A DNA stretch of 64,000 nt from Psychroflexus salis (lineage in GTDB: Bacteria > Bacteroidota > Bacteroidia > Flavobacteriales > Flavobacteriaceae), in contig NZ_BMGL01000002.1 of assembly GCF_014640175.1 (NCBI RefSeq), positions 62,001 through 126,000 on the forward strand, written 5' to 3'. The translations under genes were made by a program, and so were the position numbers. Positions 45,574 to 50,498 of the stretch are shown here, one piece after another (position 1 is the first letter of the stretch; each line of letters opens with the position of its first letter). Under the pieces are notes generated by a model that was given only the letters and a program-made list of their open reading frames with translations, had not been told where the DNA came from and did not search any database.

Positions 45574-45727
45574 AGCGGAATTACTCAGAAACCTGTGTTT
45601 CGTAACTAAAAACATCAATTAAATATAAAATCACAGGTCCCTGAGTAATTTTAAAAAGTTCCCTGAGTGTTCCGATGATAATCGGAATGTACCGAAGGGC
45701 CTTTTTAAAATTGTACCGAAGGGCCGG
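45574..45727. repeat. Inverted-repeat element, copy R1
   Basis: About 154 bases in the gap between wecB and the cupin gene. The left half (GCGGAATTACTCAGAAACCT) is a diverged version of the left arm of copies R2 and R3; the right half contains AGGTCCCTGAGT, a hairpin TTCCGAT-GATA-ATCGGAA (45670-45687) and TGTACCGAAGGGCC twice (45689-45702 and 45712-45725), ending in GGGCCGG like R2. Confidence 0.7.
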
Positions 45728-45748
45728 CTTACAACACCAAAAAAAACA

Positions 45749-46093: not shown

Positions 46094-46178
46094 GCATGAA
46101 AATGCTATAAGTTATAAGCAAAAAAAAGCCCAAAGCCTAAACCAAGTAGCAATAAGCTATAAGCCATAAGCAAAAAAA

Positions 46179-46234
46179 GCCTAAAGCCTAGAGCCTACAG
46201 CCTACAGCCTACAGCCTAAAGCCTAAAGCCTACA
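46179..46234. repeat. Heptamer array 1 (GCCTAMA, eight units)
   Basis: Eight head-to-tail 7-base units, four GCCTACA, three GCCTAAA and one GCCTAGA, preceded by GCAAAAAAA and followed by ACAAC. Looser versions (AAGCCATAAGC, AAGCCCAAAGCC) extend left to the cupin stop. The rest of the 46094-46464 gap has no gene. A second array with the same flanks is at 51041-51075. Confidence 0.85.
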
Positions 46235-46437: not shown

Positions 46438-46448
46438 TTGTATCTTTG
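46433..46448 (+). promoter_or_regulatory. Tandem -7 elements of the ATPase gene
   Basis: TATTTTTG (46433-46440) and TATCTTTG (46441-46448) lie back to back, 25 and 17 bases before the ATG at 46465. The first covers an alternative TTG start at 46438. Confidence 0.6.
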
Positions 46449-46464
46449 TGTAATTCAATACAAC

Positions 46465-47634
46465 ATGGATCATTTATTTCAATATTCTAATCAGTTAATT
46501 ACACAAGTTGATACATCATTTAAACGCTATTTGTATAACGAAATTAATTGGAATAACAGATTACTTGGACTCATTGGTCCAAGGGGCATCGGTAAAACAA
46601 CACTCTTACTTCAGTACATAAAAAATAATTTAAATCTACAAGAAACGCTTTATGTGAGCGCGGAAGACTTCTATTTTGCTGAAAAAAGATTTACTGATTT
46701 AGCAAGCGACTTTGAAAAAGCAGGTGGTAAATATTTATTTATAGATGAAATACACAAATATCCAGACTGGTCTAAGGAATTAAAATTAATTTACGATTAC
46801 CATCAAAACTTGAAAATAGTCTTTACAGGCTCTTCAATTTTAGATATAAAAAAAGGAAGTTCAGATTTAAGTAGACGAGCTGTAATTTATACCATGCAAG
46901 GCCTATCTTTTCGTGAATATGTAGAACTTTTTCATCAAATAAAGCTTCCCGTATATAACCTAGGTCAAATCCTTAATCATGAAGTAAAGGTTCCAGAAAT
47001 CAAGCATCCTTTGCCTTTATTTAAGAAGTATTTACAAACAGGTTATTATCCGTTTGCCATAGAAGATGAGTTTGAAATAAAATTACAACAAGTCATTAAC
47101 CAAACCCTAGAAATAGATATCCCTACTTACGCATCCATGAATGTTTCTACGGGAAGAAAGTTAAAGCAATTGTTAGCTATTGTAGCAAAAAGCGTCCCTT
47201 TTAAACCCAATATGAGCAAAATAGCTGAACTATTAAATATCAGCAGAAACAACATTGCAGATTATTTGCTTTATATAGAAGATGCAGGAATGATTGCACA
47301 GCTAAGAAGTCAAACTAAAGGTATTCGTGCCTTAGGAAAAGTAGAAAAAGTATATTTAGAAAACACCAATTTACTTTATAACCTAGCTGATGAAAACCAA
47401 AGAAAGGGAAATCTAAGAGAGACGTTTTTCTTTAACCAATTAAAAGCAAAATACAATGTTTCTGCTTCAGCAATAGCCGATTTTAGAATTGATAAGGTCG
47501 ATTTTGAAGTTGGTGGAAAAAACAAAAGCTTGAAACAAATTAAAAATGCAAAAAATGGCTTTGTTGTTAAAGACGATATCGAAACAGGCTTTTTAAACAC
47601 CATACCACTTTGGTATTTTGGACTACTGTATTAA
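46465..47634 (+). CDS. AAA_14/DUF4143-type ATPase
   Basis: A 389-residue P-loop ATPase. Walker A is GPRGIGKTT (about 38-46) and Walker B LFIDEIHKYPDW (about 91-102), followed by the sensor TGSSILDIKKGSSDLSRR. A winged-helix-like part (MSKIAELLNISRNNIADYLLYI, in two pieces) and a C-terminal DUF4143 nuclease-like fold region (FFNQLKAK... IDKVDFEVGGKNKSLKQIK) follow. Members are widespread and variable in copy but their function is unknown. The ATG at 46465 is chosen because the upstream TTG falls in a promoter box. Two palindromes upstream suggest tight regulation. Confidence 0.85.
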   Translation: MDHLFQYSNQLITQVDTSFKRYLYNEINWNNRLLGLIGPRGIGKTTLLLQYIKNNLNLQETLYVSAEDFYFAEKRFTDLASDFEKAGGKYLFIDEIHKYPDWSKELKLIYDYHQNLKIVFTGSSILDIKKGSSDLSRRAVIYTMQGLSFREYVELFHQIKLPVYNLGQILNHEVKVPEIKHPLPLFKKYLQTGYYPFAIEDEFEIKLQQVINQTLEIDIPTYASMNVSTGRKLKQLLAIVAKSVPFKPNMSKIAELLNISRNNIADYLLYIEDAGMIAQLRSQTKGIRALGKVEKVYLENTNLLYNLADENQRKGNLRETFFFNQLKAKYNVSASAIADFRIDKVDFEVGGKNKSLKQIKNAKNGFVVKDDIETGFLNTIPLWYFGLLY

Positions 47635-47637
47635 AAC

Positions 47638-47960
47638 CCGGCCCTTCGGTACAATCCCGCAATTGCGGAATCACTCAGGGACCTTTGTTCCTGATTCTAA
47701 ACGGGGCTTCGATACATTTTTATTTGTACCAAAGAAAATTTAACTACTGAAACCAAAATCACAGGTCCCTGAGTGATTTTAAAAAGTTCCCTGAGTGTTC
47801 CGATGATAATCGGAATGTACTTCGACTAAGCTCAGCAGAACTACCGAAGGGCGAAATTAAAACACTCAGCCACCTTTTTAAAAAGAAAATTATTCTACTG
47901 AAAACCAAAACACAGGTCCCTGAGTGATTTTGCGATAGCAAAATTGTATCGAAGGGCCGG
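47638..47960. repeat. Inverted-repeat element, copy R2 (323 bp)
   Basis: Ends are CCGGCCCTTCGGTACAAT (47638-47655) and ATTGTATCGAAGGGCCGG (47943-47960), terminal inverted repeats with 17 of 18 matches. Inside are the palindrome CCGCAATTGCGG (47657-47668), CACTCAGGGACC facing later GGTCCCTGAGTG copies, and the ATCGG hairpin. It starts 3 bases after the ATPase stop and ends 10 bases before the GIY-YIG start. Confidence 0.8.
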
Positions 47961-47970
47961 ATAACAAAAA

Positions 47971-48258
47971 ATGAACGCCTATACCTACATCTTAAAATGC
48001 TCAAATGGCAGTTACTATGTAGGTAGCACGAAAGACTTAACACGAAGAGTTGAAGAACATCAATCAGGTGAAGGAGCCAACCATACTAAAAAGTATTTGC
48101 CAGTAGAATTGATTTACTACGAAGAATACACCAGAATAGATGATGCTTTTTACAGAGAAAAACAACTTCAAAAGTGGAGTAGAAAGAAAAAAGAAGCTTT
48201 GATGCGAGGCGATAAAGATTTACTATCAGATTTAGCTAAGAAGGTGTTTGTTAACTAA
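47971..48258 (+). CDS. Single-domain GIY-YIG nuclease-type protein
   Basis: A 95-residue protein consisting only of a GIY-YIG domain of the UvrC/YhbQ type: YTYILKCSNGSYYVGSTKD gives the two motif halves, LTRRVEEH the conserved arginine, KKYLPVELIYYEEY the middle strand, and FYREKQLQKWSRKKKEAL the catalytic glutamate helix. The domain looks intact. It lies directly between two inverted-repeat elements, R2 ending 10 bases before its start and R3 starting 4 bases after its stop, so it has no room for its own promoter outside R2. Confidence 0.9.
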   Translation: MNAYTYILKCSNGSYYVGSTKDLTRRVEEHQSGEGANHTKKYLPVELIYYEEYTRIDDAFYREKQLQKWSRKKKEALMRGDKDLLSDLAKKVFVN

Positions 48259-48262
48259 CAAA

Positions 48263-48705
48263 CCGGCCCTTCGGTACAATCCCGCAATTGCGGGATCACT
48301 CAGGGACCTTTGTTCCTGATTCTAAATGGGGCTTCGATACATTTTTATTTCGCTCCCTGAGCCTGCGTGCGCTAGTCAGGCAGGTGTTCCGATGATAATC
48401 AGAATGTACTTCGACTAAGCTCAGCAGAACTACCGAAGGGCGAAATTAAAACACTCAGCCACCTTTTTAAAATCGTACTATAGAAATATATATTCTATTG
48501 AAAACTAAATAAAAGTTCCCTGAGTGTCCCGATGGTAATCGGGATGTACTTCGACTAAGCTCAGCAGAACTATCGAAGGGAATCACAGGTCCCTGAGTGT
48601 CCCGATGGTAATCGGGATGTACTTCGACTAAGCTCAGCAGAACTACCGAAGGGAATCACAGGTCCCTGAGTGTCCCGATGGTAATCGGGATGTATCGAAG
48701 GGCCG
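48263..48705. repeat. Inverted-repeat element, copy R3 (443 bp)
   Basis: Begins with CCGGCCCTTCGGTACAAT (48263-48280), identical to R2, and ends TGTATCGAAGGGCCG (48691-48705). The left arm holds a perfect 18-base palindrome ATCCCGCAATTGCGGGAT (48279-48296), then sequence nearly identical to R2 up to about 48357. It also contains CCTGCGTGCGCTAGTCAGG (48362-48380) and a 73-bp tandem array. Confidence 0.8.
48517..48700. repeat. 73-bp tandem repeat inside R3
   Basis: Units start with TCCCTGAGTGTCCCGATGG at 48517, 48590 and 48663, an exact period of 73. Each holds the hairpin TCCCGAT-GGTA-ATCGGGA. The third unit lacks the CTTCGACTAAGCTCAGCAGA part and joins directly to TATCGAAGGGCCG. Confidence 0.9.
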
Positions 48706-48833: not shown

Positions 48834-49082
48834 GTGAAGTCAATAGCTTTATTTGGCTCTGCGGCTAAAGGAACAGTGAATACGAAAAGTGATTTTGATT
48901 TATTGGTTGAGTTTTCTTCTGAATTAGAAGTCTTAGATTATGCGAATAATTATTTTTCACTTCTTGATGCACTTGAGAAAATACTTGAAAGAAAAGTTGA
49001 TTTAGTCTCGGTTAAATCACTTAAAAACCCAGTGCTCTTAGAAGAAATAAATAAATATAAAGTAAACTTGTATGCAGCCTAA
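48834..49082 (+). CDS. MNT-type minimal nucleotidyltransferase, start codon lost or unusual
   Basis: The sequence KSIALFGSAAKG with SDFDLLVEFS is the nucleotidyltransferase core (GS and the DxD metal site) of MNT antitoxins, which AMPylate their HEPN partner. The only ATG/GTG/TTG in frame is GTG 48834, but family-like sequence (IIQHNIQAIIDVCKKHQV) continues upstream to about 48783, where only ATT/ATA codons exist before a stop at 48756. Either the start was lost or a rare ATT start is used. A HEPN relic overlaps its 3' end by 11 bases. Confidence 0.65.
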   Translation: MKSIALFGSAAKGTVNTKSDFDLLVEFSSELEVLDYANNYFSLLDALEKILERKVDLVSVKSLKNPVLLEEINKYKVNLYAA

Positions 49083-49164
49083 ATTACTAAAATATATTCT
49101 AGATATTGAATCTGTTATCTAAAAGATTGAATTAAAAGTAAATAAAAACACAGCCAATACCTAA
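49072..49164 (+). pseudogene. HEPN (DUF86-like) toxin relic
   Basis: From ATG 49072 the frame reads MQPKLLKYILDIESVI, then TAA (49120-49122), then KIELKVNKNTANT and TAA at 49162-49164. The start resembles HEPN toxins (…KYLxDIxxxIxxIE). Its overlap with the MNT gene is the usual layout of HEPN-MNT pairs. Only about 30 codons remain, with one internal stop, so it cannot make a toxin. The assignment rests on a short match. Confidence 0.5.
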
Positions 49165-50498
49165 TGACTGAAAATAACCGAGTTGAATTCAAAGCACAAC
49201 TAACTCCACATTTAGAACGGGAAGTGGTGGCTTTTTTGAATTATTTAGGCGGAGGTGTTATTTATATAGGAATCAATGATCAAGGTGAAGCACAGGGGGT
49301 TGAAAACTCAGATCAACTACAATTGCAAATCAAGGACAGAATTAAAAATAATATAGCTCCATCTTGTATGGGACTGTTTGATGTAGTAGAAGAAGTAAGA
49401 GAGGAAAAACCAATTATTAAAATAATCGTTGCCAGCGGACAAGAGCGCCCCTATTACCTTAAGAAATACGGAATGTCTTCTAAAGGAGCATTCATGAGAA
49501 ACGGCAGCGCTTCAGAGCCGATGACTGGGAGAATGATAGAAGACCTATTTTCAAAAAGAATCAAAACTTCTATCGGTAAAATTGAATCACCAAATCAGGA
49601 GTTGAAATTTGAACAACTTCGGATTTATTACGACACAATAGGAAAGCCTCTAAAAAAACAATTTGCCAAATCCTTAGAGCTTTTAAATCCAGATAAAAAA
49701 TACAATTATGTAGCCTATTTGGTGGCTGATAACAATAACGTCTCTGTAAAAGTAGCGAAATACGCTGATACATCACGAGTTGATTTGGTTCAAAATGAAG
49801 AGTTTGGTTTCTGCTCATTGATAAAGGCCACCAAACTAGTACTTGACAAAATAGATGTTGAAAATAAAACTTTTACGAAGATTACTTCAAAAGAACGTTT
49901 AGAAAAGAAGCAATGGGATAAAGTTGCACTGCGTGAAGCTATCATTAATGCTATGGTACACAATGACTATACGTATGAATTAGCTCCAAAATTTGAGTTT
50001 TTCTCTGATCGTTTTGAAATTACATCTTATGGAGGTTTACCACAAGGCCTTTCTAAAGAAGAGTTTTTCTTAGGAGTATCTATCCCTAGAAGTAAAGAAA
50101 TAATGCGTATTTACAGAGATATGGAATTAGTAGAACAACTTGGTTCTGGCGTACCAAGAATTCTACAAACCTATGGAGAGGAATGTTTCTACTTTTCAGA
50201 AAATTTTATTCGTATGAGTTTTCAAATGGAGAAACAAATGGGAAAGACTGTGGAAAAGACTGTGGGAAAAACTGTGGGAAAAACTGTGGGAAAAACTGTG
50301 GGAAAGACTCAATTAGATATATTACAATTACTTATTGTTGATCCGCAAATTACTCATAAAAAAATAGCAGAAAAGTTGAAATTAAGTGTTCGTGGAGTAG
50401 AGTACAACATAAAGAAATTAAAAGACAACAAAATTATTGATAGAAGAGGAGGAAGAAAAGAAGGGTATTGGATAGTTCTGGAGCAACTTGAATTATAA
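49164..50498 (+). CDS. AlbA_2 / GHKL-like ATPase domain regulator
   Basis: A 444-residue protein of the Schlafen AlbA_2 group. The N-terminal AlbA_2 domain (1-130) starts NRVEFKAQLTPHLEREVVAF and has GGGVIYIGINDQGE. A middle region leads to the ATP-binding part (about 250-345: ALREAIINAMVHNDYT, RFEITSYGGLPQGL, LVEQLGSGVPRIL). Residues 360-382 are tandem VGKT repeats. The C-terminus (about 384-444) is a winged helix (KIAEKLKLSVRGVEYNIKKL). Such proteins are often called transcriptional regulators; the target is unknown. It lies in the repeat-rich island. Confidence 0.85.
   Translation: MTENNRVEFKAQLTPHLEREVVAFLNYLGGGVIYIGINDQGEAQGVENSDQLQLQIKDRIKNNIAPSCMGLFDVVEEVREEKPIIKIIVASGQERPYYLKKYGMSSKGAFMRNGSASEPMTGRMIEDLFSKRIKTSIGKIESPNQELKFEQLRIYYDTIGKPLKKQFAKSLELLNPDKKYNYVAYLVADNNNVSVKVAKYADTSRVDLVQNEEFGFCSLIKATKLVLDKIDVENKTFTKITSKERLEKKQWDKVALREAIINAMVHNDYTYELAPKFEFFSDRFEITSYGGLPQGLSKEEFFLGVSIPRSKEIMRIYRDMELVEQLGSGVPRILQTYGEECFYFSENFIRMSFQMEKQMGKTVEKTVGKTVGKTVGKTVGKTQLDILQLLIVDPQITHKKIAEKLKLSVRGVEYNIKKLKDNKIIDRRGGRKEGYWIVLEQLEL
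50241..50309 (+). repeat. 12-bp coding tandem repeat (GGAAAAACTGTG)
   Basis: Five full 12-base units and a partial sixth. The first two units vary (GGAAAGACTGTG and GAAAAGACTGTG), the next three are identical. In frame they give GKTV repeats in the linker between the ATPase and the winged helix. Because 12 is a multiple of 3, copy changes alter linker length without a frameshift. Confidence 0.9.

Follow-up and report, generated by a model that had tools for sequence, protein, structure and literature searches.

The window analysed here, a stretch of 64,000 nucleotides from Psychroflexus salis, contains a small GIY-YIG nuclease gene located between two blocks of inverted, REP-like hairpins. 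We consider it probable that this unit is one copy of a two-part selfish system, similar to RAYT/REP pairs and driven by an unrelated small GIY-YIG endonuclease, for which the flanking hairpins would serve as the dedicated substrate. The partnership of GIY-YIG genes and REPs is well supported: the association is subfamily-specific and distance-limited, and the types of the repeats are matched to the protein clades, with TTCG..CTCA hairpins in the clade of the window and CGTC repeats in sister clades of Pseudomonadota. We infer that it is the nuclease that moves the repeats.

Few repeats are as common in bacterial genomes as short palindromic ones, and the GTAG REP superfamily has a partner enzyme, RAYT. 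According to the 2013 survey by Di Nocera et al. (PMC3733652), which leaves the question open, the CGTC REP superfamily, whose members include dRS3 of Neisseria and the rickettsial RPE-4 and RPE-6, apparently lacks a dedicated transposase.

The window locus and its repeats

The GIY-YIG gene (positions 47971-48258, plus strand) encodes a UPF0213-like protein of 95 amino acids with a single catalytic domain (PF01541, E=1.2e-18). An earlier note on this DNA had placed the ORF 10 bp past the end of the repeat element R2 and 4 bp ahead of the start of the element R3, and this was confirmed (R2 ends at 47960, R3 starts at 48263). The same note took R2 and R3 for simple two-ended elements; they are instead composite arrays of several hairpins, with four internal copies of the core TTCGACTAAGCTCAG. 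R2 (47638-47960, no strand) consists of arms at both ends and one internal copy, the core lying at 47821-47835 (+). Its left arm (47638-47689, +), GGCCC-TTCG-(enlarged inner part)-CTCA-GGGACC, is of the TTCG...CTCA type with an enlarged loop; alone it folds weakly (z 0.43 in ssDNA folding against shuffles), and in inverted orientation it matches the segment 47909-47960 at 83% over 52 nt. That segment is the right hairpin (-), GGTCCC-TGAG-(8-bp inner hairpin)-CGAA-GGGCC, with a ssDNA fold of -8.1 kcal/mol (z -2.33). R3 (48263-48705, no strand), on the other side of the gene, is 97% identical to R2 over the first 91 nt. Its left hairpin (48263-48314, +) is of the R2-left-arm type, and its inner stem is the better of the two (ssDNA fold -8.7 kcal/mol, z -1.55). 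The core occurs three times in R3, at 48410-48424, 48550-48564 and 48623-48637 (all +). A third and shorter block of the same repeat, R1 (about 45579-45737, no strand), lies 2 kb upstream. The end arms can be read as hairpins, GGNCCC-TTCG...CTCA-GGGACC and its inverse, with an inner stem.

The 18-base end CCGGCCCTTCGGTACAAT is found exactly at 47638-47655, 48263-48280 and 45710-45727 (-), and inexactly at 47943-47960 (-, 1 mismatch) and 45686-45703 (-, 3 mismatches). With up to 3 mismatches, the window holds 5 matches against 0.02 expected, a number reached in none of 100 shuffles. R2 and R3 had also been described as sharing their start and ending with its inverted form. The identical starts and the inverted end of R2 (1 mismatch) stand, whereas the right end of R3 carries only TGTATCGAAGGGCCG (48691-48705, -), an imperfect copy of the inverted terminus recognised in the repeat-family comparison (D6), and no 18-mer at up to 3 mismatches. 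A whole-genome search for the ends, which the earlier note had proposed, was performed with the shortened form CGGCCCTTCGNTA: the 2.87 Mb contain 5 copies, all within one 3-kb neighbourhood, that of the GIY-YIG gene, and the reversed control gave 0. As all 5 copies are local, genome-wide dispersal of the window's own repeat ends is ruled out.

The genome contains eight PF01541 places, three of which belong to one subfamily: the window gene (L007), L006 (67% identical) and L008 (37%). Arrays of related repeats surround or adjoin all three; within 350 bp of the other five places, neither such a hairpin nor the core motif was found. Within the same distance, L006 has 4 hairpins and L008 has 7, and the window gene has 2 core motifs and 0 hairpins by the strict counter defined below, which misses it on account of the enlarged loops and the bulged stem of its hairpins. 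L006 is situated between hsdM- and hsdS-like genes, and its ORF runs on into the repeats. L008 (L008:1417-1731 and flanks) represents the next GIY-YIG clade (YTYKRRP), in which some hairpins close with C-G instead of T-A (TTCTCGACTCCGCTCGAA type), likely a clade-specific variant.

The neighbours of the unit in the window are an AAA_14/DUF4143 ATPase (46438-47634), a small nucleotidyltransferase (48834-49082) and an AlbA_2/Schlafen-type protein (49164-50498). Upstream of the ATPase gene there is a short tandem array of AGCCTAAAGCCTACA-like units (46127-46234). The ATPase and the nucleotidyltransferase match the PADLOC candidate defence models PDC-S01 and PDC-S09. A defence-system reading of the GIY-YIG protein itself was rejected: it has no PADLOC match, and an hsdM-like ORF occurs within 1.5 kb in 7 of the 80 loci introduced below, too few for a rule.

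The AF2 model of the window protein has a pLDDT of 91.7. Residues Y6, Y16, G18, R26 and E63, conserved at 100% in 87 genes of the TTCG class, and H30, conserved at 98%, are the catalytic residues of the GIY-YIG family. The nearest solved structures, 1zg2 and 1ywl (UPF0213; sequence E 1.6e-20 and 6e-16, Foldseek ranks 1-2), share sequence and fold family with the window protein. They were deposited as hypothetical proteins, and in the comparisons made here no partner repeat or function was met for either. Next in the Foldseek ranking come SLX1-SLX4 structures, which according to their entry titles act on branched DNA; the match is weak (E 0.01-0.2, 21-30% identity), the SLX1 chains are much longer, and SLX1 works with SLX4. 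This match hints at an action on extruded hairpins. Pfam scanning of 6 ORFs around the locus gave no transposase match.

Association of the hairpins with one GIY-YIG subfamily

A scan of a species-genome collection confirmed at least 516 relatives, counted among the first 587 stretches, and the best 80 were analysed; these 80 loci are not fully independent, as 7 of them occupy one orthologous position and synteny links a few further pairs. Going by record titles, the relatives come mostly from Bacteroidota, and also from Gamma- and Deltaproteobacteria, Treponema, Fibrobacter, Melainabacteria, Ignavibacteria and Dojkabacteria. At the 80 loci, the density of the core GAGC-N1-3-GTCGA is 3.05/kb up to 250 bp from the gene versus 0.03-0.19/kb in farther bins, and de novo k-mers recover the same family, the conserved elements being the TTCG..CTCA loops. 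Hairpins with at least 4 paired stem bases and a TTCG...CTCA loop were then counted at 81 loci (the best 80 and the window locus). They were present within 250 bp in 70 of the 81, at a density of 5.97/kb, which falls to 0.655, 0.227, 0.114, 0.039, 0.030 and 0.010/kb in successive bins up to 10 kb (the last covering 7-10 kb). Such flanking of the gene by locally enriched palindromic repeats is a REPtron feature. Three control tag pairs gave 0 matches within 500 bp of the 81 loci. In a frequent layout, judged by eye, a '+ -' hairpin pair stands on each side of the gene, the nearest hairpins often at about -33 to -40 and +30 to +50.

The specificity of this association was examined with 159 unique GIY-YIG genes, taken from the own genome, the 80 loci and loci of 60 same-family genomes. 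A strict counter (stem of at least 5, loop TCG-N4-8-CTC, within 250-300 bp of the gene) found hairpins near 71 of 82 core genes, 7 of 19 genes of the next clade, 3 of 13 of the following clade and 0 of the 45 remaining distant genes (core versus distant, Fisher p=3e-24). Two of the three matches in the 3/13 clade come from a single frameshifted core gene (L067) that is split into two halves. The window gene is among the 11 core genes that the counter missed. Among the distant genes, 13 lie by tRNA genes, 5 by CGTC hairpins and 24 by neither, and 3 were too short for the protein tree. With 0 of 45 in the distant subfamilies, a tie between TTCG..CTCA hairpins and all small GIY-YIG genes is ruled out. 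The enrichment of the subfamily beside the repeats, which the earlier note had put forward as a check, was found and extends no farther than about 250 bp. A phage or plasmid origin of the close subfamily's carriage was also rejected, as protein searches matched only at <60% identity (51 plasmid and 15 phage records).

The structure of the hairpins was studied in 286 loop matches within 300 bp of the 80 genes, taken regardless of their flanks. Stem positions 2-4 are paired at 0.90, 0.88 and 0.91, versus 0.56, 0.37 and 0.46 with shuffled partners. Stems of at least 5 bp are formed by 187 of the 286 near matches (shuffled mean 20.2, maximum 33 in 200 shuffles) and by 33 of 168 far ones, and 269 of the 286 have a Watson-Crick inner loop pair (C-G, G-C or T-A). 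With pairing so far above the shuffled values, a constant loop goes with a covarying stem. It is on this covariation that the structural claim is based, because single-strand folding of lone hairpins is not always better than that of shuffles (the left arm of R2, above, and L068, z -0.11); a more detailed model of the loop, 'bulge and inner pair', was drawn up by eye, with a test at one inner pair. Constant loops with drifting stems most likely mean that the nuclease reads the loop or tag, while the stem needs only to pair. We did not find a description of such a constant-loop, variable-stem hairpin class in the open-access literature.

At the level of whole genomes, the simple loop pattern, a usable but noisy counter, occurs 1251 times in 60 family genomes versus 566 times for its reversed control. 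Its mean is 31.0 in the 21 genomes with a core or next-clade gene (at least 80 bits) and 15.4 in the other 39 (p=1.5e-4), counts that take in the hairpins beside the GIY-YIG gene itself; the control means are 10.0 and 9.2, respectively (p=0.21). Among the genomes lacking the gene, some are loop-rich, such as G011 (64) and G001 (40). In a genus represented by 80 genomes, with up to 7 GIY-YIG matches per genome, the numbers of REPs and GIY-YIG genes are weakly related (rho 0.24, p=0.029), and genomes with the full unit do not differ in REP number from those with the empty site (p=0.64). Two genomes of this genus without the gene at E<=1e-15 contain 103 (G377) and 13 (G393) REPs. The REPs of gene-less genomes and the weak correlation indicate that the repeats can outlive the gene or live without it.

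Repeats of the sister clades and sites with and without the unit

In 7 of eight plasmid relatives that were read, palindromes were seen nearby, by eye; no repeat was seen near L185 (rnc-[GIY]-era). Some of these relatives are located inside operons: sufB-[GIY]-sufC in Azospirillum, nrdR-[GIY]-rRNA methyltransferase and rnc-[GIY]-era in Sphingomonas, and MmeI-[GIY]-drmA in Planktothrix (L189). In this last case the GIY-YIG gene lies within a DISARM cluster on a plasmid, amid GTCATTCTGAGTGAAACGAAGAATC repeats. GIY-YIG matches were found in 180 of 299 genomes of the phylum of G060 (L099, Gammaproteobacteria).

For Pseudomonadota, 101 gene entries were used, drawn from 30 among the matches listed, 60 chosen places and 8 plasmid loci (L192, in two pieces, counted twice). 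A GTC-AT hairpin is present within 250 bp of 43 of them and a TCG..CTC hairpin within 250 bp of 8, and five control tags gave 0-1 matches at that distance. The density of GTC-AT hairpins is 1.82/kb within 250 bp and then 0.324, 0.134, 0.122 and 0.041/kb in bins up to 4 kb (the last covering 2-4 kb), and the gene is frequently enclosed by an inverted pair (e.g. -22/+31, -34/+21, -31/+18). Tag-independent palindrome counts are noisy in GC-rich genomes (9.1/kb near versus 4.4/kb far). The GTC-AT hairpins fit the description of CGTC REPs, having a CGTC/TGTC tag, a stem with AT at its end and a CCA tail; these features are absent from the window's own repeats.

Labelled by their neighbours, the 254 genes of the protein tree comprise 87 with TTCG..CTCA hairpins, 52 with CGTC repeats, 13 with tRNA genes and 102 with no neighbour of the searched types. 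The three positive labels require 8 changes on the tree, versus 54.5 on average and never fewer than 47 in 200 shuffles, and all four labels ('none' included) require 54 versus 121; the tree, built on 94 columns, is poorly resolved, and label clustering alone was used. Position 73 is Lys in 100% of the TTCG..CTCA class and Trp in 94% of the CGTC class. The repeat type thus follows the GIY-YIG protein tree.

The comparison of strains and species, another check named in the earlier note, yielded sites with and without the unit. In L101 the GIY-YIG lies in frame inside an hsdR ORF (970 aa), whereas the hsdR of L080 (800 aa) has none. A moaE-like gene is preceded by REP-GIY-REP in L225 and by neither gene nor REP in L250, and a trpG-trpD-like junction shows the same kind of difference between L182 and L175 (in both cases the genes were named by eye). 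At the L268 site, 80 genomes of one genus show a full-length match in 10 cases, 12-15 bp in 34, 21-150 bp in 3 and >150 bp in 31, with 2 not placed; this presence/absence pattern may reflect gain or loss of the unit. An in-frame stop interrupts one of the ten full-length copies (G418). Reading of 30 loci of this site revealed 10 full units, 11 gaps of 12-14 bp, 1 single REP (L335), 1 REP-(gene remnant)-REP (L345) and 7 copies of another inverted element. REP-gene-REP is therefore present or absent at a site as a unit.

In L268/L324 the unit is bounded by terminal inverted repeats, a feature of IS and MITE transposons, with inverted ends of about 36 bp that start with CGTCATGGCC. No target-site duplication was recognised by eye at the compared sites, whose flanks are about 70-95% identical. 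The different inverted element (CCCTCTCCCCAACCCTCCCCCGCAAGGGGGGAGGG type) replaces REP-GIY-REP in L334, L337, L338, L348, L349, L350 and L352, with a REP remnant in L350, and the L268 site is a shared landing site for unrelated repeats.

Proposed mechanism and competing explanations

As in RAYT/REP systems (REPtrons), a nuclease gene is flanked by palindromic repeats, often as inverted pairs, solo repeats and pairs occur elsewhere, and repeats are occasionally found inside genes. However, the enzyme is here a GIY-YIG protein (PF01541), while RAYT is a Y1/HUH (IS200-like) transposase, and the GTAG tag is absent, the window clade having TTCG..CTCA loops and its relatives CGTC tags. The idea of the earlier note that the layout is comparable to that of RAYT/REP pairs, with a GIY-YIG enzyme, gains support from the contrast of 71/82 and 0/45, from the decay with distance and from the sites that have or lack the unit. 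We set the unit outside RAYT/REP and call it new, since it differs in enzyme class and in both classes of repeat; on a stricter view it may be a variant of the REP-plus-nuclease theme. Repeats of the CGTC description flank the sister GIY-YIG genes of Pseudomonadota, whereas the consulted part of PMC3733652 reports no associated transposase, and the window's own repeats are untagged TTCG..CTCA hairpins. No GIY-YIG-REP link was found in the open-access PMC literature, a body of text with no bioRxiv and few subscription journals, nor in the consulted parts of PMC10928387 and PMC9465073, where both words occur.

Based on these observations, we lean, if only moderately, towards the view that REP-(GIY-YIG)-REP is a transposable element of a new class, whose nuclease of ~95 aa would cut structured REP ends and so spread itself along with gene-less REPs and REP pairs. 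It would supply the mobiliser that is missing for both the CGTC REP superfamily and the TTCG..CTCA hairpins, distributed over many bacterial phyla and independent of RAYT/REP, with enzyme and hairpin type co-evolving. The nuclease may recognise the extruded hairpin, single-stranded or as a cruciform, by its loop, bulge or tag, and may nick or cut at the bases of the REPs, as its distant structural relative SLX1 cuts branched DNA. Host repair or replication would then move or copy the cut ends to new, mostly intergenic sites. REP-gene-REP would be the autonomous form, and solo REPs and REP pairs its derivatives without the gene; deletions inside REP-gene-REP, of the kind suggested by L345, could yield the gene-less pairs. 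A simple transposon view is at odds with the vertical retention of the gene in Flavobacteriaceae at one orthologous position (7 of the 80 loci) and with the 103 REPs of G377.

It is possible, although we regard it as unlikely, that the gene is a free-standing homing endonuclease that invades existing REPs as a target or safe harbour, the REPs themselves being spread by other means. GIY-YIG is a classic homing-nuclease fold, and the window protein shares catalytic fold and motif with I-TevI-like and Seg enzymes, shows a weak match, under the cut-off, to group I intron endonucleases (TIGR01453) and has relatives in other GIY-YIG subfamilies whose place beside tRNA genes is a homing-like habit; REPs also persist in the gene-less G377 and G393. 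I-TevI carries DNA-binding modules beyond the catalytic domain, whereas the window protein is one domain of ~90 residues. Moreover, no REP stands at the counterpart sites: 34 of 80 genomes have 12-15 bp only (11 read), and the aligned gap in L250 is free of REPs. The flanks are whole inverted hairpins and not two halves of one site, and the repeat type changes with the protein clade.

Slightly less probable, in our opinion, is a domesticated REP-processing nuclease, no longer mobile and linked to its REPs by a host role such as cruciform removal, mRNA processing or self-regulation via the hairpins. The nearly invariant catalytic residues would agree with it, as would the orthologous Flavobacteriaceae position at which the gene was kept vertically in 7 of 80 loci while the hairpin sequences turned over. 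RAYTs likewise appear unable to self-mobilize, according to the consulted part of PMC3116915. On the other hand, the varied operon positions (sufB-sufC, nrdR-rRNA methyltransferase, before the moaE-like gene), the up to 7 matches per genome and the patchy occurrence at a single site are better explained by a selfish element. REPs and small genes are both common and intergenic, so permissive gaps might collect the two by coincidence; this is very improbable given that none of the 45 other small GIY-YIG genes has TTCG..CTCA hairpins, that control tags are near zero, and that spacings recur and repeat types are clade-matched.

The selfish two-part system thus remains our preferred reading, and it names a tiny, testable candidate partner enzyme for the CGTC REPs and for the TTCG..CTCA hairpins. 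If the enzyme moves the repeats, bacteria would have a transposition chemistry not seen in them before, REP-type selfish DNA would have arisen independently a second time, and a hairpin-specific nuclease of <100 residues would exist in nature.

A second, tRNA-seeking habit is seen in other GIY-YIG genes. A tRNA lies within 250 bp of 13 of 254 genes versus 18 of 3874 random positions, and all 13 are among the 45 distant genes. Small subfamilies adjoining tRNA genes, often in tandem, are found at L012 and L013 of the own genome and at L133, L145, L148, L152, L154, L159, L160, L213, L214 and L220; copied tRNA 3' ends were seen by eye beside L213, L214 and L220.

REP hairpins, or the complete GIY-YIG unit, are found within type I restriction genes or in the gaps separating them, at L101:2519-5431 (in frame), in the hsdR of L080, at the hsdS-like genes of L006 and L020, and in L099, the L099 and hsdS cases being judged by eye.
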